Assembly: GCF_018499875.1 (NCBI RefSeq)
Contig: NZ_JAHBAY010000001.1
Coordinates: 806,001 to 870,000, forward strand
Length of the DNA: 64,000 bases
Direction of reading: 5' to 3'
From: Kineosporia corallincola
GTDB lineage: Bacteria; Actinomycetota; Actinomycetes; Actinomycetales; Kineosporiaceae
Part shown: positions 5,416-58,301 of the stretch, one piece after another
Layout of the letters: the number at the start of each line of letters is the position of its first letter
Numbering within the stretch: the first letter of the stretch is position 1
Translations under genes and position numbers: made by a program
Notes under the pieces: model-generated
Seen by the model: the letters and a program-made list of their open reading frames with translations, nothing else
What the model was told of the DNA's origin: nothing
The model's database searches: none

Positions 5416-5448
5416 AGCGCTCAAGGGCGAACAAATGGTGGACGACGC

Positions 5449-6066: not shown

Positions 6067-6068
6067 CG

Positions 6069-8642: not shown

Positions 8643-8743
8643 TACAACTGTCCCGCCGGTCGTGATCGTGGATGTCCGGGTACAGCGCCTATCGTGGTTA
8701 CCGGCCCGTGGTTCGGTATGGTCGTATTTCGGAGGATTTCTCG

Positions 8744-11988: not shown

Positions 11989-12028
11989 CGGCGGCCGTGT
12001 GCAGGTGAGCGATTGCTTACCGGGCAGT

Positions 12029-28578: not shown

Positions 28579-28655
28579 CGCGGGGTGGAGCAGCTCGGTA
28601 GCTCGCTGGGCTCATAACCCAGAGGTCGCAGGTTCAAATCCTGTCCCCGCTACCA
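28579..28655 (+). tRNA. Initiator tRNA-fMet (CAT), copy 1
   Basis: A 77-base cloverleaf with encoded CCA. The anticodon loop CTCATAA carries CAT. The anticodon stem has the three consecutive G-C pairs (GGG/CCC) of initiators, and positions 1 and 72 are unpaired (C and T), another initiator mark. The T arm contains GGTTCAAATCC. It is identical base for base to the copy at 32827-32903. Confidence 0.97.
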
Positions 28656-32826: not shown

Positions 32827-32903
32827 CGCGGGGTGGAGCAGCTCGGTAGCTCGCTGGGCTCATAACCCAGAGGTCGCAGGTTCAAATCCTGTCCCCGCTA
32901 CCA
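32827..32903 (+). tRNA. Initiator tRNA-fMet (CAT), copy 2
   Basis: Identical over all 77 bases to the copy at 28579-28655, including CCA, the three G-C pairs in the anticodon stem and the unpaired C1/T72. Only GAC is shared immediately upstream; promoters and terminators differ, so the copies are separately expressed. Confidence 0.97.
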
Positions 32904-42917: not shown

Positions 42918-44255
42918 TCAGACGGCGTCGGCCAGCATCCGCCCGATCCGGATCGCGCCGTCGACGTGCTGGAAACCGAGGCCGGCCACGTCAGACGTGC
43001 CGAACGAGACCGGGCCGACCGGCTCGCGCAGCGTGGCGCCGTAGCGGGTCAGGCCGCCGATGTCGAAGCTCGTGGCGTAGGCCCCCGCCGTCCACTCCTC
43101 GGCCATCCACTGGCTCTCGTAGTAGGCCACGGGTTCCAGGGCCTGCTCACCGTAGTAGGCGGAGAGCGAGGCCAGGATCTGCGCACGGCGTTCGCCGTCG
43201 GACAGCGCCAGCAGCCGGTCGGCGTTCTCGTCCGACACGAAACCGACCAGCGTGCCACGGGTCTCGTCGTGATTGGTGTTGTCGTAGGCCTCGTGCACCA
43301 CCTGGTAGGGGCTGAACGCGGTGCCGGACAGGCCGGCCTGCCGCCAGAACGGCGTGGCGTAGGTGATGTGCAGCTTGATCACCAGACCGAACGAGGTGTG
43401 CTGCCGGGCCTGCATCTGGATCGGGGGCAGGTTCGGGCTGAAGGCGATGCGTGACACCAGGGTCGGCGGCACGGCCACGATCACCTTCTTGGCCCGCCAC
43501 TGCCCGGTCGCGGTGGTGACGGTGGCCCCCTCGGCGTCGTGGGCGATCGAGGTGACCGGCGAACCCGTCACCACCCGGTCGCCGAGGGCGGCGGCCAGCA
43601 TCAGCGGAACCTGCTGGAGCCCACCGGCCACCCGCTTGTCCAGGATGAAGTCGGCGTCCACCAGGTTGCTGAAACTGCCCGCGCTGGCGGCCATCAGCAC
43701 GGCGGACAGGGCGGAGAAGGCGTGGGCGGGCTTGGTCAGCATGGCCGGGCCGATGTAGAGGGCGATGTTGTCGCGCGCCTCCTCGTCGTCCGTCTGCCCT
43801 TCGAGCCAGGCGGCGAACGAGACCTGGTCGAGCTCCGCGGCACCGGGCATGTCCCACGGGTTCAGCGGGTCCATCCGCGCGGCCAGGTCGTCGAGCACGG
43901 CGGTGAGCCGGTCCACCTCGGCCTCGGTGCGGGCGGAGACCGGGAACGAGGCACCGGAGAAGGTACGCCGGACGCCGTCGCGGCCGACGTAGACGCCCTC
44001 GCCCTCGCGGTAGCGGGAGAAGGTCTTCAGCCCGAGCTCGTCGATCGTCTCCAGCAGGGCGGACTGGTCGGGGGAGACCCACTGCCCGCCGAGCTCCAGC
44101 CGCACGCCGTCCACCGTGTCGGTCCACAGCCGGCCGCCGACGCGGTCGCGGGCCTCCAGCACCACCACGCTGCGCCCCGCCTTCACCAGGCGGGTGGCCG
44201 CGGTCAGGCCGGTGACACCGGCGCCCACCACTACGACGTCGACTTCGGACTTCAT
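42918..44255 (-). CDS. Flavin monoamine oxidase, putrescine-oxidase-like
   Basis: A 445-residue FAD amine oxidase. It has the dinucleotide motif VVVVGAGVTGLTAATRLVKAGRSVVVLEARDRVGGRLWT, then LELGGQWVSPDQ, and a C-terminal FAD-covering segment FGTSDVAGLGFQHVDGAIRIGRMLADAV. The overall sequence follows Rhodococcus-type putrescine oxidases, which turn putrescine into 4-aminobutanal, ammonia and hydrogen peroxide. GGGAG is seven bases before the chosen ATG; upstream codons are not conserved. Its place between a polyamine-type importer and gabT-gabD fits putrescine use through GABA. Confidence 0.9.
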   Translation of the reverse strand: MKSEVDVVVVGAGVTGLTAATRLVKAGRSVVVLEARDRVGGRLWTDTVDGVRLELGGQWVSPDQSALLETIDELGLKTFSRYREGEGVYVGRDGVRRTFSGASFPVSARTEAEVDRLTAVLDDLAARMDPLNPWDMPGAAELDQVSFAAWLEGQTDDEEARDNIALYIGPAMLTKPAHAFSALSAVLMAASAGSFSNLVDADFILDKRVAGGLQQVPLMLAAALGDRVVTGSPVTSIAHDAEGATVTTATGQWRAKKVIVAVPPTLVSRIAFSPNLPPIQMQARQHTSFGLVIKLHITYATPFWRQAGLSGTAFSPYQVVHEAYDNTNHDETRGTLVGFVSDENADRLLALSDGERRAQILASLSAYYGEQALEPVAYYESQWMAEEWTAGAYATSFDIGGLTRYGATLREPVGPVSFGTSDVAGLGFQHVDGAIRIGRMLADAV

Positions 44256-44355
44256 GATCGGGCTCCCAAGAGGTGCGTATATCGTCGTCATGAGTGTCAG
44301 CGACGCTCGAATCAGCGTCAAGTGCGGTTAACAACGACGAAATCAACAGCAAAAA

Positions 44356-45243
44356 TTATGGGACGACGCTGGATCCGTACTGCTCGGCGCAGAACGCGGC
44401 CAGCCGGCCGGCCAGCCCGGCCAGCGTGGGTTCGGCGTGATGACGGGGATCCCAGGCGGCATACAGATGGATGCGTACCGGCCCGCCCGGCCCGGTCAGC
44501 CCCAGCGGAGTGAGCCCGAACCGGGGGTCGTCCGACACCACCGCCACACCCCGGCCGGCCGCCGCGAGGGCCTGCGCCACCTGGGCGTTCGTGCAGTCGA
44601 TGGTCTCCCGGTAGCTCACCTGGGCGGCGGCCACCGCCTCGTCGAGCAACTGCCGGGGCCGGAAGTCCTCGGTGAGCAGCACCAGGGGGTGCCCGGCCAG
44701 CTCACCGACGTCCACCGTCGACCGCGTGGCCAGAGGGTGGGCCGCAGGCACCTGCGCCCAGACCGGCAGCACCGCGAGGGCCAGTGAGGCCAGGGGCCGG
44801 GCCGGTGGCCGGGTGACGATGGCCAGGTCGGCGCCGGAGTGCAGGGCCACGTCGGCGCCGCGCGGGTCGAGCTGCCGCACGAACGGCACCGGGTCGTCCG
44901 GGCGCAGCGTGGCCAGGAAGGGGGCCAGCACGTCGCTGAGCGTCGTGGTCGGCACGGCCAGGTGCACCTGGTCCAGGCGCCCGCCGGCGATGCTGGCCGC
45001 GGCCCGCCGCACCTCGTCCGCCTGCCGCAGCAGGTTCCGGGCCAGGGGCAGGAAATGTTCACCCGCCGGGGTCAGCCGCAGCCGGTGCCCCTGCCGCTCG
45101 AACAGCGGCAGGCCCAGGTCCTGCTCCAGCTGCCGTAGTTGTCGCGACAGCACCGGCTGGGTCACGTGCAGGCGCCCGGCGGCACGGGTGGCGGAGCCTG
45201 CGTCCACGGTCTCGACGAGATAGCGCAGCAGCCGCAGGTTCAT
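44356..45243 (-). CDS. LysR-family regulator
   Basis: A 295-residue LysR-type protein. The N-terminal HTH is MNLRLLRYLVETVDAGSATRAAGRLHVTQPVLSRQLRQLEQDLGLPLFERQGHRLRLTPAGE. The effector domain follows. It is divergent from gabT-gabD with 71 bases between starts, the usual set-up for a LysR activator of the neighbouring genes, and points toward the amine oxidase gene. The start codon chosen (ATG for MNLRLL) is 15 codons inside the longest frame. A CATGCT-N5-AGCATG palindrome overlaps it. Confidence 0.92.
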   Translation of the reverse strand: MNLRLLRYLVETVDAGSATRAAGRLHVTQPVLSRQLRQLEQDLGLPLFERQGHRLRLTPAGEHFLPLARNLLRQADEVRRAAASIAGGRLDQVHLAVPTTTLSDVLAPFLATLRPDDPVPFVRQLDPRGADVALHSGADLAIVTRPPARPLASLALAVLPVWAQVPAAHPLATRSTVDVGELAGHPLVLLTEDFRPRQLLDEAVAAAQVSYRETIDCTNAQVAQALAAAGRGVAVVSDDPRFGLTPLGLTGPGGPVRIHLYAAWDPRHHAEPTLAGLAGRLAAFCAEQYGSSVVP

Positions 45244-45257
45244 GCTCACGAAGCATG
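45241..45257. promoter_or_regulatory. Palindrome at the LysR start
   Basis: CATGCT-CACGA-AGCATG overlaps the LysR start codon in the divergent LysR/gabT region. It may be an autoregulatory LysR site; arms are only 6 bp. Confidence 0.35.
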
Positions 45258-45314
45258 AAGATAGTGCTGAACAGGTCTTGGACAACATGATGGACGACGT
45301 CGCACCCTCGACAC

Positions 45315-46628
45315 ATGCCCGAACTCGAACAGTCCCGCCTGCTGCGCACCGAGCTGCCTGGCCCCCGCTCGGCCGCCCTCATGCAGCGCAAGCAGGCCTT
45401 CGTCAGCCCCGGTGTGGGGACCACGATGCCGGTCTTCGCCGCCCGCGCGGCCGGCGGCATCGTCGAGGACGTCGACGGCAACCGGTTCATCGACCTCGGC
45501 TCGGGCATCGCGGTCACCACGGTCGGCAGCAGCGCGCCCCGCGTGGTCGAGGCGGTGCGGGCCCAGGTGGCCGAGTTCACCCACACCTGCTTCATGATCA
45601 CGCCGTACGAGTCCTACGTGGCGGTTGCCGAGGCGCTCGCCCGGCTGACCCCGGGCGACGGCGAAAAGCGTTCCGCCCTGTTCAATTCCGGGTCCGAGGC
45701 GGTGGAGAACGCGGTCAAGATCGCGCGCTCGTACACCGGCCGCGACGCCGTGGTGGTGTTTGATCATGCCTACCACGGCCGCACCAACCTGACCATGGCG
45801 ATGACCGCGAAGGTGGCACCCTACAAGCACGGGTTCGGCCCGTTCGCCGGAGAGGTGTACCGGGCGCCGATGTCGTACCCCTCGCGCGACGGCCTCTCCG
45901 GGCCCGAGGCCGCCCGGCGTGCGCTGTCGCAGATCGAGACCCAGGTCGGGGCCGGCAATCTCGCTGCCCTGGTGATCGAGCCGATCCAGGGCGAGGGCGG
46001 TTTCGTCGTCCCCGCACCGGGATTCCTGAAGGCCCTGGCCGACTGGTGCACCGCCAACGGCGTGGTGTTCGTGGCCGACGAGGTGCAGTCCGGATTCGGC
46101 CGCACCGGAACGATGTTCGCGGTGGAGCACGAAGACGTCGTGCCCGACCTGGTGGTGAGTGCCAAGGGCATCGCCGGCGGGCTCCCGCTGTCGGCCGTCA
46201 CCGGCCGGGCCGACATCATGGACGCCGTCCACACCGGTGGACTCGGCGGCACCTACGGGGGCAACCCGCTGGCCTGCGCCGCCGCGCTCGCCGTGATCGA
46301 GACGATCGAGAGGGACGGCCTGCTGGAGCGGGCCCGGCAGATCGAGACCCTGGTGCTCGGCCGGCTGAGCGCCCTGGACGACCCCCGGATCGGTGACGTG
46401 CGGGGCCGGGGCGCCATGCTGGCCGCCGAGTTCGTCCACCCGGCCACCGGTGAGCCCGACGCGGCGCTCGCCAAAGCCGTTGCCGCTCATGCGCACTCGC
46501 AGGGCGTGATCACCCTGACCTGCGGCACCTGGGGCAACGTGATCCGCTTCCTGCCGCCGCTGAGCATCTCCGACGAGCTGCTCACCGAGGGCCTCGACGT
46601 GATCGCCGCCGCGCTGAAGGAGAACTGA
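45315..46628 (+). CDS. gabT: 4-aminobutyrate aminotransferase
   Basis: A 437-residue class III PLP aminotransferase that moves the amino group of GABA to 2-oxoglutarate, giving succinate semialdehyde. Key features are NRFIDLGSGIAVTTVG, NSGSEAVENAVKIARSYTGR, YHGRTN, the PLP Asp in VVFVADEVQSGFGRTG and the Schiff-base Lys in VVSAKGIAGGLPLSAVTGR, then GGTYGGNPLACAAALAVI. All catalytic residues are present. It is followed three bases later by gabD. Confidence 0.95.
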   Translation: MPELEQSRLLRTELPGPRSAALMQRKQAFVSPGVGTTMPVFAARAAGGIVEDVDGNRFIDLGSGIAVTTVGSSAPRVVEAVRAQVAEFTHTCFMITPYESYVAVAEALARLTPGDGEKRSALFNSGSEAVENAVKIARSYTGRDAVVVFDHAYHGRTNLTMAMTAKVAPYKHGFGPFAGEVYRAPMSYPSRDGLSGPEAARRALSQIETQVGAGNLAALVIEPIQGEGGFVVPAPGFLKALADWCTANGVVFVADEVQSGFGRTGTMFAVEHEDVVPDLVVSAKGIAGGLPLSAVTGRADIMDAVHTGGLGGTYGGNPLACAAALAVIETIERDGLLERARQIETLVLGRLSALDDPRIGDVRGRGAMLAAEFVHPATGEPDAALAKAVAAHAHSQGVITLTCGTWGNVIRFLPPLSISDELLTEGLDVIAAALKEN

Positions 46629-46631
46629 GTC

Positions 46632-48050
46632 GTGAACGACGTACTGATCGACGGTAACTGGCTGGAGGGGGAGCGGGGCGAGTTCGACGTCGTCGACCCG
46701 GCCACGCTCGCCGTGGTCGCCCGGGTGTCCGACGCCGGCCCGGCCGACGCGGTGGCCGCCGTGGACGCCGCGGCCGCGGCCCTGCCGGCCTGGTCGGCCA
46801 CCGCCCCGCGGGCGCGGGCCGACCTGCTGATGCGGACCCGCGAGCTGATGCTGCGCGACACCGAGGAACTTGCCGCGCTGATCGCCTCGGAGAACGGCAA
46901 GTCGCTGGTGGACGCCCGGGGCGAGGTGGGTTACGCGGCCGAGTTCTTCCGCTGGTTCGCCGAGGAGGCCGTGCGCCCGCACGGCGACTTCGGTTCCTCA
47001 CCGGCCGGCGGCACCCGCACCGTGGTCACCCACCACCCGGTCGGCGTGGCGGCGCTGGTGACGCCGTGGAACTTCCCGGCCGCCATGGCCACCCGCAAGA
47101 TCGCCCCGGCCCTGGCCGCCGGCTGCACGGTGGTGCTCAAGCCCGCCGCCGAGACACCCCTGACCGCCTTGGCCGTGGCCCGGCTGATGCACGAGGCCGG
47201 AATCCCGTCCGGCGTGGTCAATGTCGTGCCCGGGCTGGACGGCCCGGCAATCGTGAAGGCCTGGACCGACGACCCGCGGGTGCGCAAGATCTCGTTCACC
47301 GGCTCGACGAACGTGGGGCGCCAGCTGCTGCGCCAGGCCTCGGACCGGGTGATGAACACGTCGATGGAACTCGGCGGCAACGCGCCGTTCGTGGTCACCG
47401 CCGACGCCGACCTGGACGCCGCGGTGGACGGTGCGATGATCGCCAAGTTCCGCAATGGTGGGCAGGCCTGCACCGCGGCCAACCGGTTCTACGTGCACGC
47501 CGACGTCGCCGCGGAATTCACCGCCAGGCTCGGCGCCCGGGTCGAGAAGCTGGTGGTCGGGCCGGCTTGCGAGGGCTCGGACATCGGCCCGCTGATCTCC
47601 GCGAAGGCGTTGGCCAACGTGACCCGCCTGGTCGAGTCGGCCCTGGTGACCGGCGCCCGGGTGGCGCACCGGGCCGCTCCGGCCACCGCGCCCGGGCACT
47701 TCTTCACCCCGGTCGTGCTGACCGGCGTGACGGCGGAGTCGGACGTGGTGCGCGAGGAGATCTTCGCGCCGGTCGCCCCGATCGTCACCTGGACCTCGGA
47801 GGCGGAGCTGCTGGCCCAGGTGAACGACACCGAATTCGGCCTGGCCGCCTACGTCTTCGCCGGTGACCTGGGTGCGGCGCTGAAGCTGGCCGAGCGGATC
47901 GAGGCCGGCATGGTCGGCATCAACCGCGGCCTGGTCTCGGACCCGTCCGCCCCGTTCGGCGGGTTCAAGCAGAGCGGCATCGGGCGCGAGGGAGCCCGCG
48001 CCGGGCTGGAGGAGTACACCGAGACCCAGTATTTCAGCGTGGCCTGGTAG
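46632..48050 (+). CDS. gabD: Succinate-semialdehyde dehydrogenase
   Basis: A 472-residue NAD(P)-dependent aldehyde dehydrogenase. It has the cofactor strand VTPWNFPAAMATRKIAPALAAGCTVVLKPA, the FTGSTNVGRQL loop, catalytic Glu in SMELGGNAPFVV and catalytic Cys in NGGQACTAANRFYVH. The C-terminus ends INRGLVSDPSAPFGGFKQSGIGREGARAGLEEYTETQY, close to GabD. It oxidises succinate semialdehyde to succinate and could also accept 4-aminobutanal. GTG start, four bases after gabT. Confidence 0.93.
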   Translation: MNDVLIDGNWLEGERGEFDVVDPATLAVVARVSDAGPADAVAAVDAAAAALPAWSATAPRARADLLMRTRELMLRDTEELAALIASENGKSLVDARGEVGYAAEFFRWFAEEAVRPHGDFGSSPAGGTRTVVTHHPVGVAALVTPWNFPAAMATRKIAPALAAGCTVVLKPAAETPLTALAVARLMHEAGIPSGVVNVVPGLDGPAIVKAWTDDPRVRKISFTGSTNVGRQLLRQASDRVMNTSMELGGNAPFVVTADADLDAAVDGAMIAKFRNGGQACTAANRFYVHADVAAEFTARLGARVEKLVVGPACEGSDIGPLISAKALANVTRLVESALVTGARVAHRAAPATAPGHFFTPVVLTGVTAESDVVREEIFAPVAPIVTWTSEAELLAQVNDTEFGLAAYVFAGDLGAALKLAERIEAGMVGINRGLVSDPSAPFGGFKQSGIGREGARAGLEEYTETQYFSVAW

Positions 48051-48118: not shown

Positions 48119-48937
48119 TCAGGTGACCGTCGTCTCACGCCACGGTGCCCAGTCCGGGTCGTGCCCGGGCCAGACCTCCACCCCCGGCTGCTGATCCAGC
48201 TCGTGCAGCCGCCGGATCGCGGTCAGAGCGTGCGGCTCGTCCTGGGGTCGCATGGTGGTGCCGCACGGCAGCGCCTGCTCGATGTTGCCGCGCAGGTCGG
48301 CCGCGTCGCAGGCGAGAACCACGGTGCGGGTGGGCAGCTCGATCCGGAACGACTGGTGGCCCGGGGTGTGGCCGCGGGTGTCCAGGGCGCTCACCCCCGG
48401 GGCCAGGGCGGTGTCGCCGTCGAGCAGCACCAGGTCGAGGTCCGGCCGCAGGAAGTCGCCGGGCACCGTGACCAGCGTGTCGCCGAGTTCCGGGATGGCC
48501 CGGGCGAACTCGTACTCGGCCCGCTGCATCAGCACCGGGGCGCTGATCAGGCGCAGGCCGCCGGTGTGGTCGAGGTGCACGTGCGAGATTCCGCAGCCCT
48601 TCAGGCCGGCCCAGTCCAGGCCGAGCGCCGCCACCTGGTCGGCCAGCGGGTCGCCGGGCGGCAGCAGGGCGGTGTAGCTCTCGTAGTTCAGGTATTCCGC
48701 GCGCCGGGCCGCATCGCGCACCACGTCCACGTTGAAACCGCTGTCGAACAACAGCCAGCCGTTCTCGAACACCACCGCGGCCACCGTCACCGGCTCCAGC
48801 AGGAACCGGGCCGGGTCGCCGCCGGGCACCGAGATCGGCTCCCGGATCGGCTCGTAGCCCACCACCATCGGATGCATCCGCAGCGGCCGGCCGGTCAGGC
48901 CGAGGCCCGAACCGGGCTGCCAGTCACGCACACTCAT
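48119..48937 (-). CDS. Metallo-beta-lactamase-fold hydrolase (lactonase-like)
   Basis: A 272-residue MBL-fold protein with the metal motif SHVHLDHTGGL, a later GHTPGHQSF and Asp in VLACDAADLRGN, and an end PGHDPDW. This resembles N-acyl-homoserine lactonases (AiiA/AttM group), which open lactone rings. It is the final gene of the peptide/nickel-type ABC operon: its ATG overlaps the ATPase stop by four bases. That setting suggests it processes the imported compound rather than a quorum signal; the substrate is unknown. Confidence 0.87.
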   Translation of the reverse strand: MSVRDWQPGSGLGLTGRPLRMHPMVVGYEPIREPISVPGGDPARFLLEPVTVAAVVFENGWLLFDSGFNVDVVRDAARRAEYLNYESYTALLPPGDPLADQVAALGLDWAGLKGCGISHVHLDHTGGLRLISAPVLMQRAEYEFARAIPELGDTLVTVPGDFLRPDLDLVLLDGDTALAPGVSALDTRGHTPGHQSFRIELPTRTVVLACDAADLRGNIEQALPCGTTMRPQDEPHALTAIRRLHELDQQPGVEVWPGHDPDWAPWRETTVT

Positions 48938-50454
48938 GAAGCCACCTCCAGACTCGGGGACGCCGCCAGCAGACTCCTGGTGTAGTCGTGCCGCGGCGCG
49001 TCGAACACCTCGCGCACGCCACCCTCCTCCACGATCCGGCCCTCCGTCATCACCGCGACCCGCCCGGCGATCCGCTTGGCCACCGCGAGGTCGTGGGTGA
49101 CCAGCAGCAGAGCCACACCGGTGGTGCGGCGCAGCTCGTCGAGCAGGTCCACGACCTGGGCGGCCAGGGTGGCGTCGAGTGCGCTCACCGGCTCGTCGCA
49201 CAGCAGCACGCGCGGCGAGGAGGCCAGGGCCCGGGCGATCGCGGCCCGCTGGCACTGGCCGCCGGACAGCCGTCCCGGACGTGCCCCGGCCAGTTCCGGG
49301 TCCAGCCCGACCCGCCGCAGCAGCTCGGCCACCCGGTGCCCGCGCTCCGCCCGGGGCAGCCGCTCGGCGATCTGCCGGCCGATCGGCATCCACGGCGTCA
49401 GCGAGGCCCGGGCGTCCTGAAAGATCAACTGGGGACGCGTGTCCGCCGGCACCCGCACCGAACCCGCGCTCGGCGTCTGGAGTCCGGCCGCGATCCGCAG
49501 CAGCGTGGACTTGCCGCTCCCGCTCTCGCCGACCAGCGCCACCGATTCCCCCTCGGCCAGGCTCAGATCCACGCCGTGCAGCACCCGCCGGGTCTGGCGC
49601 CGGCGGTGCGGCACCGGGAAGTCCTGGACGATGCCGGACATCCCCAGCACCTCGTTCGCCGTATCGAACGAGGCGTCCGGAACGCCGAACGGACCGGCGA
49701 TGTCCAGGCGCGATGCCAGGAGCCTGCGCGTGTAGGGGTGTTTCGGGGCGCCGAGTACGGCGGCTGCCGGGCCCTGTTCGCGGATCTGCCCGTCCGACAT
49801 CACCACGATCCGGTCGGCGATCTGCGCGGCCACCCCCAGGTCGTGGGTGATCAGCAGCACCGAGCAGCCGTGCTCGGCCCGCAACCGGGCGAACAGCGCC
49901 ACCACCCGGGCCTGCACGCTGACGTCGAGAGCCGTGGTCGGCTCGTCGGCCACGATCAGCGCCGGGGCCTCGCCGGTCGGGGTGGCGATCGCCCCGGCGA
50001 TGCTCACCCGTTGCCGCAGCCCGCCGGACAGCTGGTGCGGCCAGTAGTGAAACCGCTCGCCGGGCTCGGGAACTCCGCACTCCTCCAGCGCCGCCACCCC
50101 GCGCTCCGGGGTGGCGCCACGTTCGCACACCTGCGCCCCGGCCCGCATCGTCGGGTCGAGCGAGGTGAGCGGGTCCTGGAAGACGGCACCCAGCCGGTGC
50201 CGGCGCACCCGGTGCCGCTGCGCCCGCGACCCGGTCAGCATGTCCACGCCGTCCACCTCCACGGTGCCGCCGACCGAGGCGTGCGGAGCCGGGAGGCCGA
50301 GCAGGCAGCTGCCCAGAACGGTCTTGCCCGAGCCGGACTCGCCGACCAGGGCGACGATCTCGCCCGCGGTGATCTCCAGGTCGACCCCGTCCACGGCCCG
50401 CCGGCCGCCGAAATCGACCACCAGCCCGGACACCCGGGCCACGATGTGGGTCAT
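48934..50454 (-). CDS. Fused double ATPase of dipeptide/nickel-type ABC transporter
   Basis: A 506-residue protein carrying two nucleotide-binding domains, equivalent to DppD and DppF joined. Domain 1 has Walker A GESGSGKTV, signature HQLSGGLRQRVS and Walker B ALIVADEPTTALD; the oligopeptide-type HPYTRRLLAS segment follows. Domain 2 has GESGSGKST, RLSGGQCQRAAIARAL and VLLCDEPVSALD. All catalytic motifs are intact in both halves. The ATG overlaps the permease stop by four bases. A longer frame on this strand upstream is antisense noise. Confidence 0.93.
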   Translation of the reverse strand: MTHIVARVSGLVVDFGGRRAVDGVDLEITAGEIVALVGESGSGKTVLGSCLLGLPAPHASVGGTVEVDGVDMLTGSRAQRHRVRRHRLGAVFQDPLTSLDPTMRAGAQVCERGATPERGVAALEECGVPEPGERFHYWPHQLSGGLRQRVSIAGAIATPTGEAPALIVADEPTTALDVSVQARVVALFARLRAEHGCSVLLITHDLGVAAQIADRIVVMSDGQIREQGPAAAVLGAPKHPYTRRLLASRLDIAGPFGVPDASFDTANEVLGMSGIVQDFPVPHRRRQTRRVLHGVDLSLAEGESVALVGESGSGKSTLLRIAAGLQTPSAGSVRVPADTRPQLIFQDARASLTPWMPIGRQIAERLPRAERGHRVAELLRRVGLDPELAGARPGRLSGGQCQRAAIARALASSPRVLLCDEPVSALDATLAAQVVDLLDELRRTTGVALLLVTHDLAVAKRIAGRVAVMTEGRIVEEGGVREVFDAPRHDYTRSLLAASPSLEVAS

Positions 50455-51416
50455 GACGTCTCCCGAAGTCGCGGGTCGATCAGCAGCTGGAGCATGTCGA
50501 CGACGAAATTGAGCAGCACGTAGGCCACCCCGAGCACCAGCACCACCCCGGTGATCGCGGCCAGGTCGGAGGCGGCGATCGCCCCGGACAGGTAGCGGCC
50601 CAGACCCGGCCAGGAGAACAGTCCCTCCACCACCACCGAGCCGCTGAACATGATGCTCACCTGGAGCCCGGCCATCGACAGGGCGGGCCCGGCGGCGTTG
50701 CGCAGCCCGTGCCGCCACACCGTGGCCCACCAGCCGGCCCCCTTGGCCCGGGCCGAGCGCACGTAGTCGGCCGCCATCGCCTCGCGCAGCGAGGCCCGCA
50801 GCACCCGGCCGATCGCCACGGCCGGCGACAGCGACAGCACCACGGCGGGCAGCACGAGATGCCACAGCGCGTCGAGGAATCCGGTCACGCCGCCGGGCGC
50901 CAGCAGGGCCGCGCCCCGGCCGCCCGCCGGGAACCAGTGCAGGTCGCGGTAGAACACCAGGAGCAGCACGATCGCCACCAGGAACGACGCCGCCGAGGCC
51001 CCGGCCACGGTGACCACCCGCACCGTGCCGGCGGCGATCCCGTCCCGGGCCCCGAACACGCCCAGCAGCAGGCCGCCGGCCAGCGCCATAACCGCCGCCA
51101 CCAGCACCAGTTCGAGCGTGGCGGGCAGATAGGTGGCGATGTCGTCGGCCACCGGGCGCCGGGTGCTCACCGACGTGCCCAGGTCACCGCCCAGCAACCG
51201 GCCGAGATAGCCCAGGTAGTGCGGGATCAGCGGCTCGTCCAGGCCAAGTCGCTCCCGGGCCGCGGCCAGCGCCTGGGGTGAGGCGGTGCGCCCGGCCAGC
51301 ACCCGGGCCGGGTCGGAGGGCAGCTGTCGCTGGATCAGGTCGACCACGAAGGTCAGCACCAGTAGCACGCCGGCCATCGCGGCCAGCCGCACGCCGAACT
51401 GTCGCAGGAAAGCCAT
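50451..51416 (-). CDS. ABC permease (DppB-like)
   Basis: A 321-residue DppB/NikB-type permease. It starts MAFLRQFGVRLAAMAGVLLVLTFVVDLIQRQLPSDPARVLAG, has the typical large first loop (GLDEPLIPHYLGYLGRLLGGDLGTSVSTRRPV) and then the EAA region VLRASLREAMAADYVRSARAKGAG. Its start and the preceding permease's stop share one base (TGATG). Confidence 0.93.
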   Translation of the reverse strand: MAFLRQFGVRLAAMAGVLLVLTFVVDLIQRQLPSDPARVLAGRTASPQALAAARERLGLDEPLIPHYLGYLGRLLGGDLGTSVSTRRPVADDIATYLPATLELVLVAAVMALAGGLLLGVFGARDGIAAGTVRVVTVAGASAASFLVAIVLLLVFYRDLHWFPAGGRGAALLAPGGVTGFLDALWHLVLPAVVLSLSPAVAIGRVLRASLREAMAADYVRSARAKGAGWWATVWRHGLRNAAGPALSMAGLQVSIMFSGSVVVEGLFSWPGLGRYLSGAIAASDLAAITGVVLVLGVAYVLLNFVVDMLQLLIDPRLRETS

Positions 51417-52258
51417 CAGCCGATCCGCTCCTGTACCCCGTCGCCGGCGAAGTTGGCAGCCATCGTGACCACGAAAAGCACTGCGGCGGGAGCGAGAGCG
51501 ATCCACGGCGCACTGAACAGGTAGGTGAAACCGGCGGCCGACATGCTGCCGATCTCGGCGGCCGGGGCCGGGGCGCCGAGCCCGATGAACGACAGCGAGG
51601 CCAGCAGCACCAGCACCGAGCCGACGTCGAGCGAGGCCACGACGACCACCTGCCGCAGCACCCCGGGCAGGACGTGCCGCCCGGTGACCCGTAACCGGGA
51701 CAACCCGGCGGAGCGGGCGGCGTCGACGTGCGGCAGGTGCCGGACCGCCCGCACCTGGCCGCGCACGATGCGCGCGTACCAGGGCCACCAGGTGGCGGTC
51801 ACGGCCAGCAGCACGTTGCGCAGGCCCGGGCCGAGGGCCGCCACCACCAGCAGCGCGACCAGCGGCCCGGGCAGCGCCAGCACGGCGTCGGTGATCCGCA
51901 TCAGCACGCCGTCCACGATTTTGCCCGACATCCCGGCGAGAGTGCCCACCAGGGTGCCGATCAGCAGACTGCCCCCGATGATGCCGAGCACTCCCCACCA
52001 GCCGGCCGACAACCCGAGGACGACGCGGGAGAGCACGTCGCGGCCCTGTTCGTCGGTGCCCAGCCAGTGCTGCCACCCGGGTGCGGTGAAAGGCGCCGCC
52101 ACGATCTCGGTCTCGCCCGCCGGCACGAGCCAGCGGGCGAACGGCAGAACCAGGGTGAGGACGACGATCAGGACCAGGCACCCGAGTTCCAGCATGCCGC
52201 CGGCATTCCGGCGCGGTGCGACGACCCGGAACCGCACCGGCGCGGCCATGGTGCTCAC
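51416..52258 (-). CDS. ABC permease (DppC-like)
   Basis: A 280-residue DppC/NikC-type permease with the family mark HWLGTDEQGRDVLSRVVLGLSAG near residue 65 and an EAA-type loop HVDAARSAGLSRLRVTGRHVLPGVL. The start is uncertain between GTG 52258 and ATG 52249; the former lies five bases from the binding-protein stop. Part of the five-gene transporter-lactonase operon. Confidence 0.9.
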   Translation of the reverse strand: MSTMAAPVRFRVVAPRRNAGGMLELGCLVLIVVLTLVLPFARWLVPAGETEIVAAPFTAPGWQHWLGTDEQGRDVLSRVVLGLSAGWWGVLGIIGGSLLIGTLVGTLAGMSGKIVDGVLMRITDAVLALPGPLVALLVVAALGPGLRNVLLAVTATWWPWYARIVRGQVRAVRHLPHVDAARSAGLSRLRVTGRHVLPGVLRQVVVVASLDVGSVLVLLASLSFIGLGAPAPAAEIGSMSAAGFTYLFSAPWIALAPAAVLFVVTMAANFAGDGVQERIG

Positions 52259-52263
52259 GGTGG

Positions 52264-53844
52264 TCAGTTCCGCTTCAGCGTGCGCAGGTCGAGCGTGACC
52301 GACAGCGGCAGCCAGTGCCCGGCGCCGGTCAGGTCGGCGCTCATGATGAACGCGTCCTGGAGGTCGGCCAGGGTGATGTACGAGACGTCGTCGTGGATCG
52401 CGTCTCCCGCCTCGCCGTAGGCCTTCTCGATCTCGGCCTGGTCGGTCGCGGCCGACCCGGTGTCGATCAGCTCGTCGGCCGCCGGGGTGCCGCCCGCCAG
52501 GTAGTTCAGGGCGCCGTTGCCGTCGGCGCTGTCGGAGTACCAGAACAGCCGGGCCCAGGTGTCCGGGTGCGCCGAGTCCGGGTAGGCCGCCTCGAACAGC
52601 AGATCCGGTGCGGTGTCGAGACTTCCGCTCAGCCCGTACACGTCGTTGCCCTGCACCGAGCTCAGCTCGACGTCCACCCCGGCGGCGGCCCACTGCGCCT
52701 GGAGCGCCTCGGCGGCCTGCTGGTCGGCGGTGTGCCCGGCGATGTACCCGAGCGTGATCGTCTTCCCCCGGGCCAGGGTGGCCAGATCGCCGTTCGAGGT
52801 CTGCGTCGATGTCTGCCAGGTGTCGGCGGCCGTGCCCTCCGGCACCATCCCGGCCGGGTACATCTGCTCCGACACCGTGGCGTACTCACCCCAGACCTGG
52901 CTGACCAGGGCCTGCCGATCGATCGAGTCTCGCAGCGCCGTGCGCAGTTCCACGTCCGCCAGGGTGCCGCTGGTCTTCACGTGCAGGTCGGCCTTCTGGA
53001 GCGTGGGGAACCGCACCACCTGGTAGTCGTCGTCGGCCGCGAACTGGTTCAGCGTGGTCACCGGCTGACCGGTGATCACGTCCAGGTCGCCGCCCTGCAA
53101 CTGGAGCAGCTGGGTGGCGGCGTCGCTGATCACCTTCACCGACACGGTGGCGAAATACGGCTCGGCGCCCCAGTAACCGTCCCGCCGGGCGAGGTCGTAC
53201 TCCTGGCCCGCGGTCATCGAGGTGAGCTGGTAGGGCCCGGTGCCCGCGGTGTTCTCCGCCAGGTAGGCCGCCGCGTCGTCGTCCGCATGCTCGTCCAGCA
53301 CGTCGGCGTCGATCACCTTGGGGCCGAACGGGCTGGCCACCAGCGACAGGAACGAGCTGCTCGCCGCCGACAGCTCGACCACGAAGGTGGAGTCGTCGGG
53401 GGTGTCGTAGTTCTTCACCCCGGCCACCATGTAGGCCATCTGCGACCCGAGGTCCGGGTCGGCCAGCCGCTCGAAGCTCGCCAGAACGTCTTTCGAGGTC
53501 ATCGCCCGGCCGTCGGCGAAGGTCACGTCGTCGCGCAGGTGGAAGGTGTAGGTGAGCCCGTCGTCCGACATCTCGTACGACTCGGCGAGCATCGGCTCGA
53601 TCTCGTCGGTGGAGTCGGGGCTGTAGGTGAGCAGGCCCTCGTAGACCGCGGTGAGCACCTGGTTGCCCTCGTACTGGTACACGGTCTGCGGGTCGAGTGT
53701 GGGCATCTCGGCGGAGATCGCCAGGCGCAGCTCGTCCGCGGCGCCGCCGGCGCCGCCCTGGCTCGTGCCCGAGCACGCGGCCAGGCTCGTGACGATGACG
53801 ACGGCGCTGAGGGGCCGCAGATACGGGGAGAATCGGCGCTTCAT
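52264..53844 (-). CDS. Peptide/nickel-type solute-binding lipoprotein (DppA-like)
   Basis: A 526-residue family 5 extracellular binding protein, first in its operon. The lipoprotein signal ends IVTSLAACSGTSQGG. The mature part has LRLAISAEMPTLDPQTVYQYEGNQVLTAVYEGLLTYSPDSTD, YTFHLRDDVTFADGRAMTSKDV and the long C-terminal lobe. Such proteins bind oligopeptides, nickel chelates or glycosides; the ligand is not predictable here. A TetR-type operator lies 25-44 bases before its start, so expression is probably linked to that of the carboxylase gene beyond tetR. Confidence 0.93.
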   Translation of the reverse strand: MKRRFSPYLRPLSAVVIVTSLAACSGTSQGGAGGAADELRLAISAEMPTLDPQTVYQYEGNQVLTAVYEGLLTYSPDSTDEIEPMLAESYEMSDDGLTYTFHLRDDVTFADGRAMTSKDVLASFERLADPDLGSQMAYMVAGVKNYDTPDDSTFVVELSAASSSFLSLVASPFGPKVIDADVLDEHADDDAAAYLAENTAGTGPYQLTSMTAGQEYDLARRDGYWGAEPYFATVSVKVISDAATQLLQLQGGDLDVITGQPVTTLNQFAADDDYQVVRFPTLQKADLHVKTSGTLADVELRTALRDSIDRQALVSQVWGEYATVSEQMYPAGMVPEGTAADTWQTSTQTSNGDLATLARGKTITLGYIAGHTADQQAAEALQAQWAAAGVDVELSSVQGNDVYGLSGSLDTAPDLLFEAAYPDSAHPDTWARLFWYSDSADGNGALNYLAGGTPAADELIDTGSAATDQAEIEKAYGEAGDAIHDDVSYITLADLQDAFIMSADLTGAGHWLPLSVTLDLRTLKRN

Positions 53845-53868
53845 GGGGGTCCTCGCCAGCCGGGAGAG

Positions 53869-53888
53869 TTTCGATCAACCGATAGGAA
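53869..53888 (-). promoter_or_regulatory. TetR-type operator O2 before the transporter operon
   Basis: TTTCGATCAACCGATAGGAA matches the operator at 54687-54706 at 16 of 20 positions, in the same orientation. It lies between the tetR stop and the start of the binding-protein gene. Confidence 0.6.
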
Positions 53889-53948
53889 GTCGGCCCTATT
53901 CAGCCCATCGCGTGTTTCGCCGGTGATACGCGGGCGCGGCGGGATTGG

Positions 53949-54602
53949 TTAAATGGTGAAGGCGGAAGATGTGGTGCGGGCCACAGTGCGTAGCCGGCGC
54001 TCGGGCACTCGCAGCACGCGCAGGGCCGCGTCGGCGATCGCCGGGGCCACCTCGGCGGCATCCATCGTGCCCTCGGTGCGGCGCCGCAGGATCACCGACT
54101 CGATCAGGCCGATCACCAGTGCCGCAGTCGGTTTCGCCAGGTCGGGGGTGGTGTCTAGCACGGCGGCGACGAGTTCGCGGTACACCCCGTAGAGGCGTTC
54201 CCGCTCGGTCCGGAACTCGGCGAAGGGCTCCTCGTCGACCCCGGGGATCAGGTAGAGCGCGCCCAGGTTGTCCGGTCCGGACAGCAGCAGCCGGGTGTCG
54301 TAGGAGCACAGGGCCCACAGCCGCACGTCGGCCGGCGCGTCGCTGGCCGCCAGTGAGGTGGCGAACTCCACCGAGGGGCGCACGGTCTCCATCAGCAGCC
54401 GCAGCAGTACGGCCTGCTTGCCGGGGAAGTAGTGGTACATCGAGGCCTGGCTGATGCCGGCCCGGGCCGCGATCTTGTGCGTGCTGGTGCTGCCGTAGCC
54501 GGCCGTGCAGAACAGGTGCGCGGCGGCGGCCAGGATGTCTTGCTCGGTGCTGAGGCCGGAGGTGGAGGGGCCTTTGGCACGGGGCCGGCCGAGCGTGGGC
54601 AT
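53949..54602 (-). CDS. TetR-family regulator
   Basis: A 217-residue TetR protein. The N-terminal HTH is EQDILAAAAHLFCTAGYGSTSTHKIAARAGISQASMYHYFPGKQAVLLRLL, and the ligand domain is unlike any named subfamily I know. It lies between the peptide-type transporter operon (same strand, downstream) and the carboxylase gene (divergent). Related 20-bp operators stand in front of both, so it probably represses both and senses a shared substrate. Confidence 0.92.
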   Translation of the reverse strand: MPTLGRPRAKGPSTSGLSTEQDILAAAAHLFCTAGYGSTSTHKIAARAGISQASMYHYFPGKQAVLLRLLMETVRPSVEFATSLAASDAPADVRLWALCSYDTRLLLSGPDNLGALYLIPGVDEEPFAEFRTERERLYGVYRELVAAVLDTTPDLAKPTAALVIGLIESVILRRRTEGTMDAAEVAPAIADAALRVLRVPERRLRTVARTTSSAFTI

Positions 54603-54686
54603 GGCCGGAGTGTAACCCGCCCCGGCGAGCGAGGTTACGTCGTGTTAACCGGTACGGAATCCGGCGTCAACGCGTGCTGTCTTGAC

Positions 54687-54706
54687 TTTCTATCAACTAA
54701 TAGAAA
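54687..54706 (+). promoter_or_regulatory. TetR-type operator O1 in carboxylase/tetR promoter region
   Basis: TTTCTATCAACTAATAGAAA is a palindrome with 7-bp perfect arms and a 6-base centre. TTGACT at 54682-54687 is a good -35 for the carboxylase, so a bound repressor would cover the promoter. Confidence 0.75.
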
Positions 54707-54761
54707 ATGGGCCGCCGCTCCTCGGGGGGTGCGGCCGGATGTCTGGAATCGCGAGGACTTG

Positions 54762-57700
54762 GTGACGGAACTGCGCACAGGCCAGGGGATCTCCACGCTG
54801 CTGGTGGCCAACCGCGGCGAGATCGCCTGCCGGGTCATCCGCTCGGCGAAGCGGCTCGGCATCCGCACGGTGGCGGTGTTCTCCGAGGCCGACCGGGCCG
54901 CCGCGCACGTGCTGCTGGCCGACGAGGCGGTGCTGATCGGGCCGGCCGCGCCGGCGGCGAGCTACCTGAACGCGCGGGCGCTGCTGGCCGCGGCCCGCGA
55001 CACCGGTGCGCAGGCGGTGCACCCGGGCTACGGCTTCCTGTCCGAGGACGCCTCGTTCGCCGAGCAGGTGGAGGCGGCCGGGCTGGTCTGGGTCGGCCCG
55101 ACGCCGCGGCAGCTGCGGCTGCTCGGGGTCAAGCACACCGCCCGGGCCGCCGCGGTGGCGGCCGGGGTGCCGGTGTTCCCCGGCACCGGGCTGCTGGAGT
55201 CGGCCGAGGCGGCGGTGGCCGAGGTGGCGGAGATCGGCTACCCGGTGATGCTGAAGGCCACCGGCGGCGGTGGCGGGATCGGGATGACGGTGTGCCGCGA
55301 CGAGGCCGCGCTGCGGGCCGGTTTCGAGCGCGTCTCCGGGCTCGCGGCCCGGAGTTTCGGTGACGCCGGGGTGTTCGCCGAACGGTATGTGGAGCGGGCC
55401 CGGCACGTCGAGGTGCAGGTGTTCGGCGACGGTGCCGGGCGGGTGGTGTCACTGGGCGACCGGGACTGCTCGCTCCAGCGGCGGCATCAGAAGGTGGTGG
55501 AGGAGGCGCCCGCGCCGGGTCTGCCCGACGGGCTGCGGGAGCGGTTGCACACCTCGGCGCGCGACCTGCTGGCGTCCGTCGGTTACCGCTCGGCCGGCAC
55601 CGTGGAGTTCGTCTACGACCCGGCCCGCGGCGAGGCGTCGTTCCTGGAGGTGAACGCCCGCCTCCAGGTGGAGCACCCGGTCACCGAGGCGGTCACCGGG
55701 GTGGACCTGGTGGGGTGGATGCTGCGGCTGGCCGGGGGCGAGAAAGACCTGCTGGCGGGGATTTCCGATGCTGTTCCGTCGCGCGGGCACGCCTTCGAGG
55801 CCCGGGTCTACGCCGAGGACCCGGCCGCCGGGTTCCGGCCCGGCGCCGGTCTGCTGACCCGGGTGGAACTGCCCGCCGGTGCGCGGGTGGACGGCTGGGT
55901 CACCACCGGCACCACGATCCCGACCGAGTACGACCCGCTGCTGGCCAAGGTGATCGTGCACGGCGACACCCGTGACGAGGCGCTGGGCCGGCTGCGCGAG
56001 GCGCTCGGGCGGACCCGGTTCGACGGCGTGGAGGTGAATCTCGGCCTGTTGCGGGCAATCACGCGGCTGCCGGAGTTCTCCGCGCTCGGCCATCACACCG
56101 GAACGCTGGAGGGGCTGGGCGATCCGGAGCCACGGATCACCGTGGGCCGGCCGGGCCTGATGACGACCGTTCAGGACGCCGACGGCCGGCGCGGCTTCTG
56201 GCAGGTGGGGGTGCCGCCGAGCGGGGCGATGGACGACCGGTCGCTGCGGGCGGGCAACCGGCTGCTGGGCAACCCGGACGACGCGGCCGGGCTGGAGTGC
56301 ACGGCGAACGGCCCGGAACTGACGTTCACCCACGCCACCCGGGTCTGCGTCACCGGTGCCCCGGCCCCGGTCACGGTCGACGGCCGGGAGGTGGCGATGT
56401 GGAGCGTGGTGACGGTTCCGGCCGGGGCCACGCTGGCGGTCGGCGAGGCGAGCGCCGGGCTGCGCAGCTACGTGACGATCGGCGGGGGTTTCGCCGTCTC
56501 TGATTATCTGGGTTCTGCGTCGACTTTCACCCTGGGCGGGTTCGGTGGCCACGGCGGGCGGGCCCTGCGCCCCGGCGACGTGCTGCGTGCCGGGCACAGG
56601 CAGGCCACCGGTGAGCCCGCCGCCACCCTGGAACCCGTTGCCTTCGAACGGCACTGGGACCTGACGGTCACCGTCGGCCCGCACGGTGCCCCGGACTTCT
56701 TCACCCGGGCGGACGTCCGGCAGATCCTGTCGGCCCGCTACGAGGTGCATTTCAACTCCGCGCGCACCGGCGTGCGGCTGATCGGCCCGAAACCGGAGTG
56801 GGCGCGCCGGGACGGCGGGGAGGCCGGGCTGCACCCGTCCAACATCCACGACAACGCCTACTCCGTGGGTGCCCTCGACTTCACCGGCGACACCCCGATC
56901 CTGCTCGGCCCGGACGGCCCGTCGCTCGGCGGGTTCGTCTGCCCGGTCACCGTGATCCGTTCCGAGCGCTGGAAACTCGGTCAGCTGCGACCGGGTGACA
57001 CCGTGCGATTCGTCGAGAAGGCTCAGACCTCAAGGGGTCTGAGGGGTACGGACGGCGTACTGCTGCGCTGCGCGGCCGACGGCGACGCTCCCGAGGTGGC
57101 GTACCGGCGCAGCGGTGACGACAATGTGCTGATCGAATACGGCCCGATGACACTGGATCTCGGCCTGCGGGCGCGGGTGCACGCGCTGCACACCCGTCTG
57201 GCGGGGCTCGGAATCCCGGGCGTGGTCGACCTCACCCCGGGCATCCGCAGCCTTCAGGTGCACGTGGATCCGGAGGTGCTGCCGGTGTCGCGTCTGCTCG
57301 GGCTGCTGGTGGAGGCCGAGGGCGACCTGCCGGCCACGAGCGAGCTGGTGGTGCCGAGCCGGCGGGTGCGCCTGCCCCTGAGCTGGGACGACCCGGCCAC
57401 CCGGCTGGCGATCGAGCGGTACATGGCCGGGGTGCGCGACGACGCCCCGTGGTGCCCGTGGAACATCGAGTTCATCCGCCGGATCAACGGCCTGGAGACG
57501 CCGGACGACGTGTACCGCACCGTGTTCGACGCCGAGTACCTGGTGCTCGGGCTGGGCGACGTGTACCTGGGCGCACCGGTGGCCACGCCGCTCGACCCGC
57601 GGCACCGGCTGGTCACCACCAAGTACAACCCGGCCCGCACCTGGACCGCGGAGAACTCGGTCGGCATCGGCGGCGCATACCTGTGTATCTACGGCATGGA

Positions 57701-58301
57701 GGGGCCGGGCGGCTACCAGTTCGTCGGGCGTACCACGCAGGTCTGGCGCACCCATCCGGCCGCCGGCGAGAACCCTTGGCTGCTGGACTTCTTCGACCGG
57801 ATCAGCTGGTACCCGGTGTCGGCCGAGGAACTGCTCGACCTGCGCGCCGACCTGGCCGCCGGGCGCAGCACCCCGGACATCACCGAGGGCAGCTTCTCGC
57901 TGGCCGAGCACGAACGGTTCCTGGCCGGCAACGCCGACTCGATCGCCGCGTTCCGCCAGGTGCAGGCCGCGGCGTTCGGGGCGGAGCGCCGGGCCTGGGA
58001 GGAGGCGGGTGAGTTCGACCGGGCCGAGCGGGCCGCCGCGCAGGTGGTCGAGGTGACCGCCGAGGTGGCGGTGCCGGAGGGTGGCACCCGGGTGGACGCG
58101 CCGTTCGTGGCGAACGTCTGGAAGGTGCTGGTGCGGCCGGGCGACCTGGTCGAGGCCGGGCAGGAGGTGGTGGTGCTGGAGGCGATGAAGATGGAGGCAC
58201 CGGTGCTCGCGGCCGCGGCCGGGGTGGTGGCCGCGATCCCGGTGACGCCCGGGTCGCAGGTGGCGCCCGGCGATGCGCTGGTGGTGCTGGGGCCCCGCTG
58301 A
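54762..58301 (+). CDS. Biotin-dependent urea/guanidine-type carboxylase
   Basis: A 1179-residue multidomain enzyme that carboxylates urea (to allophanate) or a related compound with ATP and bicarbonate. Order: biotin carboxylase (from residue 10, LLVANRGEIACRVIRSAKRLG; KATGGGGGIGM; EVNARLQVEHPVTEAVTG), AHS2/KipA-like (about 460, GRPGLMTTVQDADGRRG), AHS1/KipI-like (about 778), urea-carboxylase-specific YNPARTWTAENSVGIGGAYLC, and a biotin-carrier domain ending with EAMKMEAPV (biotinyl Lys near 1143). No amidase (DUR2) domain is attached and no allophanate hydrolase gene is in the window. GTG start after GAGGA. Urea versus guanidine specificity is unresolved. Confidence 0.92.
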   Translation: MTELRTGQGISTLLVANRGEIACRVIRSAKRLGIRTVAVFSEADRAAAHVLLADEAVLIGPAAPAASYLNARALLAAARDTGAQAVHPGYGFLSEDASFAEQVEAAGLVWVGPTPRQLRLLGVKHTARAAAVAAGVPVFPGTGLLESAEAAVAEVAEIGYPVMLKATGGGGGIGMTVCRDEAALRAGFERVSGLAARSFGDAGVFAERYVERARHVEVQVFGDGAGRVVSLGDRDCSLQRRHQKVVEEAPAPGLPDGLRERLHTSARDLLASVGYRSAGTVEFVYDPARGEASFLEVNARLQVEHPVTEAVTGVDLVGWMLRLAGGEKDLLAGISDAVPSRGHAFEARVYAEDPAAGFRPGAGLLTRVELPAGARVDGWVTTGTTIPTEYDPLLAKVIVHGDTRDEALGRLREALGRTRFDGVEVNLGLLRAITRLPEFSALGHHTGTLEGLGDPEPRITVGRPGLMTTVQDADGRRGFWQVGVPPSGAMDDRSLRAGNRLLGNPDDAAGLECTANGPELTFTHATRVCVTGAPAPVTVDGREVAMWSVVTVPAGATLAVGEASAGLRSYVTIGGGFAVSDYLGSASTFTLGGFGGHGGRALRPGDVLRAGHRQATGEPAATLEPVAFERHWDLTVTVGPHGAPDFFTRADVRQILSARYEVHFNSARTGVRLIGPKPEWARRDGGEAGLHPSNIHDNAYSVGALDFTGDTPILLGPDGPSLGGFVCPVTVIRSERWKLGQLRPGDTVRFVEKAQTSRGLRGTDGVLLRCAADGDAPEVAYRRSGDDNVLIEYGPMTLDLGLRARVHALHTRLAGLGIPGVVDLTPGIRSLQVHVDPEVLPVSRLLGLLVEAEGDLPATSELVVPSRRVRLPLSWDDPATRLAIERYMAGVRDDAPWCPWNIEFIRRINGLETPDDVYRTVFDAEYLVLGLGDVYLGAPVATPLDPRHRLVTTKYNPARTWTAENSVGIGGAYLCIYGMEGPGGYQFVGRTTQVWRTHPAAGENPWLLDFFDRISWYPVSAEELLDLRADLAAGRSTPDITEGSFSLAEHERFLAGNADSIAAFRQVQAAAFGAERRAWEEAGEFDRAERAAAQVVEVTAEVAVPEGGTRVDAPFVANVWKVLVRPGDLVEAGQEVVVLEAMKMEAPVLAAAAGVVAAIPVTPGSQVAPGDALVVLGPR

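Follow-up and report, generated by a model that had tools for sequence, protein, structure and literature searches.

A probable AmtR-type regulon around a predicted guanidine carboxylase in Kineosporia corallincola, with an attached Opp/Nik-type importer and a lactonase-like hydrolase

The degradation of guanidine by a guanidine carboxylase, the carboxyguanidine deiminase CgdAB and the allophanate hydrolase AtzF has already been described (PMC11410670, PMC12186494), with PF09347 as the family of the deiminase subunits (PMC11410670); here and below, statements on published work refer to the sections of each paper that were available to us. A conserved actinobacterial operon of amtR, an amino acid permease gene, urf1, urf2, a 'urea carboxylase' gene and an amidase gene was reported in 2013 from Kineococcus, Streptomyces avermitilis and Mycobacterium smegmatis and assigned to urea degradation; the M. 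smegmatis AmtR binds the operon promoter, urea and amino acids have no influence on this binding, and guanidine is not named, in the sections available, among the effector compounds tried (PMC4222082). In this study, we analyzed a 64-kb window from Kineosporia corallincola, meaning the whole stretch G000:C1:806001-870000 of a genome (G000) of 8.2 Mb in 53 contigs. In it, the gene of an AmtR-family repressor stands between a divergently transcribed carboxylase gene and an operon for an Opp/Nik-type ATP-binding cassette (ABC) importer and a metallo-beta-lactamase-fold (MBL) hydrolase. We consider it probable that the locus represents a nitrogen-scavenging regulon of the AmtR type, centered on a guanidine carboxylase, with the importer and the MBL hydrolase feeding it. 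The elements of this reading that sequence comparison establishes are the AmtR membership, the AmtR boxes, the carboxylase signature, the full gene set and the recurring linkage.

Compared with the published guanidine carboxylase pathway, the enzymes and both signature residues of the carboxylase are the same, and the set is complete in G000. The pathway is, however, split over two contigs, the carboxylase and CgdAB-AtzF appear to be of different ancestry, no riboswitch was found, and an Opp/Nik-type importer and an extra MBL hydrolase are present. With the AmtR/'urea carboxylase' operon, the locus shares an amtR gene adjoining the carboxylase gene, and the published urf1 and urf2 match, by position and in our reading, the urea-carboxylase-associated genes UAAP1 and UAAP2; an amino acid permease gene is found there (PMC4222082), whereas the locus here encodes an ABC importer and an MBL hydrolase, with UAAP and amidase genes on a separate contig. 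The core pathway is known, and it is the attached importer and N-acyl-homoserine lactone (AHL)-lactonase-like hydrolase that appear to be new. Neither a paper with both AmtR and 'guanidine carboxylase', nor the AmtR-guanidine link, nor the importer-MBL extension was found in the open-access literature searched. The initial annotation of this DNA had proposed an operator-tied regulon for a pathway that lacked genes and appeared undescribed. Its regulon is supported here, but the genes are present in the genome and the core guanidine carboxylase/CgdAB/AtzF route is published (PMC11410670, PMC12186494).

The regulator gene (53949..54602, minus strand) lies immediately upstream of the importer-MBL operon. 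The six best PDB matches of the protein are 5dxz, 5dy0 and 5dy1 (TetR regulator) and 5mqq, 6gy3 and 5e57 (AmtR), with E-values of 1.2e-32 to 2e-37, and the next-best match has only 5.9e-11; the first three we take to be the M. smegmatis TetR regulator/AmtR. By these best matches, the TetR protein of the window belongs to the AmtR family. Its SQASMYHYF segment keeps Gln, Ser and Tyr among the C. glutamicum DNA contacts Gln53, Ser55, Tyr57, Tyr58 and His59 and has the last two in swapped order. Among loci L016-L060, which belong to the best 80 (L016-L095) of 591 confirmed stretches, an AmtR homologue occurs in 39 of 45 and UAAP2 in 43 of 45.

The two operators are TTTCGATCAACCGATAGGAA at 53869-53888, upstream of the importer-MBL operon, and TTTCTATCAACTAATAGAAA at 54687-54706, between amtR and the carboxylase gene, and they share 16 of their 20 bases. 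An AmtR box has been published as tttCTATN6AtAGat/aA, with a spacing that is essential (PMC2723105). The operator plan of the C. glutamicum AmtR regulon, CTAT-N6-ATAG with a six-base spacer, is exact at the stronger site (core at 54690-54703, within a perfect 7+7 dyad with a 6-bp spacer) and present with one mismatch at the weaker (core at 53872-53885). That regulon, however, comprises 35 or more genes that serve the use of ammonium, urea and creatinine (PMC2723105), whereas G000 has two boxes genome-wide within three mismatches of the degenerate pattern. At no more than one mismatch, the core was found in the window at these two operators only, and 40 resampled windows gave a mean of 1.1 sites (maximum 4) and no perfect core. 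The weaker operator is not significant by itself, given this mean, but its conservation is, TTTCGATCAACTGATAGGAA standing at the equivalent place in two congeners (G006 and G008). The strong operator sequence occurs once in the genome at up to three mismatches, and the degenerate operator pattern, at the same tolerance, finds only these two operators, with 0 in the control.

The genus sample comprised six members (G000, G005, G006, G007, G008 and G009). In G000, G006, G008, G005 and G007, the pattern gave 2, 5, 5, 3 and 4 sites at up to three mismatches, and the reversed-pattern control gave 0, 1, 1, 2 and 4. All 12 sites with up to two mismatches in these five genomes fall at carboxylase-regulon genes; the seven three-mismatch sites lie elsewhere and are probably due to chance. 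A box-like dyad upstream of the AmtR homologue exceeds all 20 shuffles in 39 of 62 loci, with about 3 expected. The proposal that two related 20-bp operators flank tetR and tie both the carboxylase promoter and the importer-MBL operon to it was borne out, and the recurrence of this association in other genera makes an accident unlikely. Separately, a further locus of the same genome (L203, G000:C5:281000-298500, at 4920-12026) holds a second AmtR paralogue (36%), another Opp/Nik-type importer and two genes for isochorismatase-family hydrolases, with TAGCTATCGGCTGATAGTTA as an AmtR-like box ahead of the binding protein gene; AmtR paralogues lie ~7 kb from similar binding proteins in G006:C17, G008:C16 and G007:C67 too.

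The importer-MBL operon runs from 53844 to 48119 on the minus strand, with adjacent genes overlapping by 1-4 bases or lying ~5 bases apart. It encodes a family-5 extracellular solute-binding protein (52264..53844; PF00496), a DppC/NikC-like permease (51416..52258; PF00528; start GTG 52258 or ATG 52249), a DppB/NikB-like permease (50451..51416; PF00528, PF19300), a fused ATPase (48934..50454; two PF00005 stretches, Opp/Nik/Dpp-type models) and, as the final gene, the MBL hydrolase (48119..48937; PF00753). Every gene named in the initial annotation was found at its place. The metal-ligand positions of the MBL hydrolase (HxHxDH, H, D, H) do not vary among 18 aligned sequences. It shares the fold and the dinuclear metal motif of the AHL lactonases AiiA and AttM, and the nearest solved folds to its structure model (predicted local distance difference test, pLDDT, 91.8) are AiiA, at 26% identity, and other AHL lactonases. 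Its scores, on the other hand, are far below the model cut-offs (AttM, 83.5 against 390 bits; AiiA, 80.5 against 375 bits), and its context is a guanidine carboxylase and AmtR. A plasmid search for named MBL relatives was set aside, as only four AHL-lactonase-type records, ~32% identical, were obtained, from Pantoea and Paraburkholderia.

The conservation of this gene set was followed in samples of 198 genomes of the order and 394 of the class, each drawn from a larger group, and the carboxylase-AmtR-importer-MBL association recurs across genera in varied gene orders. In the order sample, MBL relatives (E ≤1e-40) occur in 11 genomes and carboxylases (E ≤1e-180) in 30; ten genomes have both, and the remaining MBL-positive one, G012, has contig-end carboxylase fragments only (Fisher p 1.5e-8 without correction for ancestry; at genus level, 3/3 vs 8/72, p 9e-4). 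The MBL gene lies within ~10 kb of the carboxylase operon in ten of these 11 genomes (G012 being counted through a fragment), and in G007 it lies beside AmtR only. In genus g15 the order is carboxylase-MBL, divergent AmtR, and UAAP1-UAAP2-AtzF-binding protein-importer-isochorismatase-family hydrolase; in g6 it is UAAP1-UAAP2-carboxylase-AtzF-importer-hydrolase-binding protein-MBL. The class sample has the MBL in eight of 394 genomes, namely the window, G489, in which it directly follows AtzF without an importer, and six of genus g75, in which AmtR, boxes, importer, hydrolase, binding protein and MBL are clustered and one of the six fetched loci shows a carboxylase. The isochorismatase-family hydrolase of the relatives (PF00857) has biuret hydrolase as its best NCBIfam match, far below cut-off, and PF00857 includes guanylurea hydrolase (PMC9800807). 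The GuuH guanylurea hydrolase route (PMC9800807) is similar in its isochorismatase-family hydrolase, found here beside the importer in relatives, and in its downstream enzymes; it differs in that the window has no isochorismatase-family gene and the MBL hydrolase is of an unrelated fold, and the likeness is by family, not by GuuH sequence. The recurrence of this gene beside the importer in relatives gives some support to the initial suggestion of a larger or cyclic amide/urea-type nutrient.

An importer of nickel or peptides under nitrogen control and a quorum-quenching lactonase, both outside guanidine metabolism and merely grouped by AmtR with other nitrogen-scavenging genes, would also account for the operon, although we regard this as unlikely. 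One half of the fused ATPase passes the NikD cut-off (338 against 318.7 bits) and NikE is narrowly missed (331.9 against 332.55 bits), the best structural relatives of the MBL hydrolase are AHL lactonases, and the C. glutamicum AmtR controls many transporters (PMC2723105). In contrast, the binding protein reaches 171.5 bits against the NikA cut-off of 393 and is below cut-off for all 12 listed nickel, peptide, glutathione and opine models, the low lactonase scores of the MBL hydrolase point the same way, and its linkage to the carboxylase operon in different gene orders, including the importer-free arrangement of G489, would not be expected.

The carboxylase gene (54762..58301, plus strand) encodes biotin carboxylase, CT_A_B, CT_C_D and biotin carrier domains in a single chain with an EAMKME motif, and the product scores 1697 bits against TIGR02712, 'urea carboxylase'. 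It is the only full-length carboxylase of G000. Its start is probably the GTG at 54762 (1179 aa) and not that at 54432 of the longest open reading frame, because alignments with relatives start at about residue 8-16 and the operator sits between the two GTG codons. Guanidine and urea carboxylases are told apart by Asp at the position of Kluyveromyces lactis residue 1330, and Asp at 1584 is required (PMC11410670). At the first position, the K. lactis urea enzyme has Asn and the window enzyme has Asp706, which does not agree with a urea carboxylase; at the second, the window enzyme has Asp933, and Asp is found in 61 of 61 aligned rows. By both signature residues, the window 'urea carboxylase' is predicted to be a guanidine carboxylase with a preference for guanidine over urea.

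The alignment of 61 full-length rows contained nine duplicates and so gave 52 distinct carboxylases (>1000 aa, ≥53% identity), from which 25 shorter or split rows were kept apart. Among the 52, 49 are of the Asp706 type and three of the Asn type, and UAAP2 is present in the fetched locus of 47 of the 49 Asp-type enzymes versus none of the three Asn-type ones. The two Asp-type enzymes without UAAP2 in the locus are those of the window and of the congener G008, and in both genomes UAAP2 is on another contig. The fetched loci of the three Asn-type enzymes contain no UAAP gene, AmtR homologue or MBL. Of the 25 shorter or split rows, 21 have Asp, one has Asn and three are unreadable. As a separate observation, in Rhodococcus, Nocardia and kin (L034-L040, L043-L046 and others) the carboxylase match begins near residue 458, the biotin carboxylase part lying outside the same match, and these enzymes seem to exist in split form or to make use of a different biotin carboxylase.

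It is improbable that the window enzyme is an ordinary urea carboxylase which, with the AtzF of contig C18, would form a two-part urea amidolyase and leave the importer and the MBL hydrolase incidental. The high score to the 'urea carboxylase' model, the presence of AtzF in the genome, the publication of the AmtR operon as one of urea degradation (PMC4222082) and a shorter Asn-type enzyme that retains UAAP genes and an AmtR homologue (L059, see below) would favor it. The window enzyme, however, has Asp in place of the Asn of the K. lactis urea enzyme, the three full-length Asn-type enzymes lack UAAP genes, AmtR homologue and MBL in their loci, and the genome retains UAAP1 and UAAP2. We dropped the urea amidolyase reading on the Asp706 signature and the co-occurrence with UAAP genes, with L059 as a noted exception.

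The remaining genes of the pathway are encoded on contig C18, in a 19.9-kb locus (L014, G000:C18:92000-111900). Its UAAP1-UAAP2-AtzF operon (L014 7773-11025) yields three proteins that all pass curated cut-offs, with 281.7 against 205.95 bits for TIGR03425 and 305.9 against 284.7 bits for TIGR03424 in the case of the UAAP1 and UAAP2 models. UAAP1 and UAAP2 are PF09347 proteins, assigned to CgdAB by family models and not through the published CgdA/CgdB clades. With this operon and the one full-length carboxylase, the known route from guanidine through carboxyguanidine and allophanate to ammonia is predicted to be complete in G000, in two loci. Allophanate hydrolase and the urea-carboxylase-associated genes are indeed absent from the window, as initially noted, but the genome search proposed at that time finds both on C18, AtzF in one operon with UAAP1 and UAAP2. 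The refuting condition set in the initial annotation, that the enzyme be an ordinary urea carboxylase whose regulon also covers a distant atzF, has a mixed outcome: atzF does lie elsewhere, but no AmtR box was found there and the carboxylase carries the guanidine signature.

In the carboxylase tree, the window groups with G008, G007 and G005 (95/97), and with Frondihabitans and G146 (100/100). In the UAAP2 and AtzF trees, the C18 genes group with Streptomyces sp. uw30, Propionibacterium cyclohexanicum, G489, G125 and genus g15 (100/100, 100/99), apart from G005 and G007. The simplest reading would be two operons of different origin, each reduced. The carboxylase-AmtR-importer-MBL locus, together with a UAAP1-UAAP2-AtzF operon at a separate site (UAAP2 89-90% alike), is present in G000, G006 and G008. 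The G006 carboxylase gene is divided between two contigs, at the starts of C34 and C1, and UAAP2 of this genome is at C1:518313, about half a megabase off. G005 and G007 have a canonical UAAP1-UAAP2-carboxylase-AtzF operon, with two boxes in G007, and no carboxylase match was found in G009 at the thresholds used. A sodium-solute symporter adjoins the canonical operon in G005 and G007 and is at a third locus in the split genomes; as the importer shared by all, it was rejected, an AmtR box being found at this third locus in G006 and G008 and none in G000. A GGATCC-N15-GGATCC repeat just upstream of the C18 operon is kept in G006 and G008. L014 has three such repeats, at 473, 4359 and 7719 (mean 0.01 in 200 resamples), which precede an MFS (major facilitator superfamily) transporter gene, an aldehyde dehydrogenase gene and UAAP1, respectively, and suggest a second regulator for the deiminase-allophanate hydrolase operon. 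The initial idea that the carboxylase acts on a larger substrate (a cyclic urea or hydantoin), in an undescribed pathway needing no allophanate hydrolase, is very improbable, for although the carboxylase is apart from UAAP/AtzF and joined to the importer and MBL in three congeners, its catalytic signature and full-length architecture are those of a guanidine carboxylase, its closest relatives outside the split group (75-76%, G005 and G007) are in the canonical operons, and all three split genomes retain UAAP-AtzF.

Besides the NikD score, several observations weigh against a guanidine regulon with an importer and MBL hydrolase that feed it. Peptides or metal chelates are the usual ligands of family-5 binding proteins. 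Two DNA-contact positions of the window AmtR read His-Tyr, not Tyr-His, the C. glutamicum order being inferred from the residue names in the paper. No box above shuffles was found in 23 of the 62 AmtR loci, that of G007 among them. The search for an AmtR box at the C18 operon was negative, both within six mismatches of either window operator in L014 and by weight matrix in L014, L135 and L136, which counts against co-regulation of the two loci; AmtR control of cgdAB-atzF was rejected on these searches. The carboxyltransferase of L059 (Nocardia tenerifensis) has Asn, yet its locus contains UAAP1, UAAP2 and an AmtR homologue; the pairing of signature and UAAP genes thus has exceptions, and L059 is either an exception to the signature rule or a case of switched substrate. 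The G007 site syntenic to the window (L134, G007:C22:1-19000) keeps the amine oxidase, LysR, GabT, GabD, MBL and AmtR genes, the last two as overlapping reading frames (L134 6864-8347), but is without importer, carboxylase and box, which represents either loss or the state before insertion. Five of the six g75 genomes show no carboxylase within the fetched 20 kb, and the cluster of G096 (genus g15) is without MBL. Finally, no MBL or binding-protein match of at least 80 bits was found in the 45 loci L016-L060, some of them short stretches, so both appear optional for the guanidine pathway.

Considering these results, we propose the following model for the AmtR-type guanidine regulon. AmtR would repress the carboxylase gene and the importer-MBL operon through the two boxes, and probably its own gene too, and guanidine or a nitrogen-status signal would release it. 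The importer would take in guanidine or, given its Opp/Nik type, more likely a larger guanidino compound, which the MBL hydrolase, as a zinc enzyme, would open or cleave. Guanidine would be converted with ATP to carboxyguanidine by the carboxylase, and CgdAB (UAAP1/UAAP2) and AtzF from the C18 operon would complete the route to ammonia and CO2; the two loci would be co-expressed. Control by a guanidine riboswitch was rejected, as none was found at gathering scores in the window, in L014 or in 18 further selected loci; near the promoter none was found even at a permissive threshold, the two sub-threshold matches being Giardia U6 RNA and the small nucleolar RNA sR45. As no riboswitch was found in these scans, AmtR may stand in for it in these operons. 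A more speculative extension, which we hold only tentatively, is that AmtR, outside Corynebacterium, acts as a repressor that responds to guanidine and so does in Actinobacteria, as a protein, what guanidine riboswitches do as RNA. In this extension, the MBL hydrolase, with the isochorismatase-family hydrolase of the relatives, would release guanidine by a new reaction from a larger, possibly cyclic, guanidino nutrient imported by the Opp/Nik-type system.

In our reading, a regulon published as one of urea degradation becomes a guanidine regulon, which raises the testable question of what releases AmtR outside Corynebacterium. Furthermore, guanidine carboxylase is accompanied in several genera by an importer and a zinc hydrolase, whose substrate could reveal a natural source of guanidine, which is still an open question (PMC12186494).

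Adjoining the locus, the window encodes a flavin amine oxidase, a LysR regulator, GabT and GabD (42918-48050), a polyamine/gamma-aminobutyrate route whose placement is kept in G007 and partly in G006. We left these genes out of the system because they remain in place in G007, where the site is without importer and carboxylase. Two tRNA genes with identical scores are located ~4.2 kb apart at 28579-28652 and 32827-32900.

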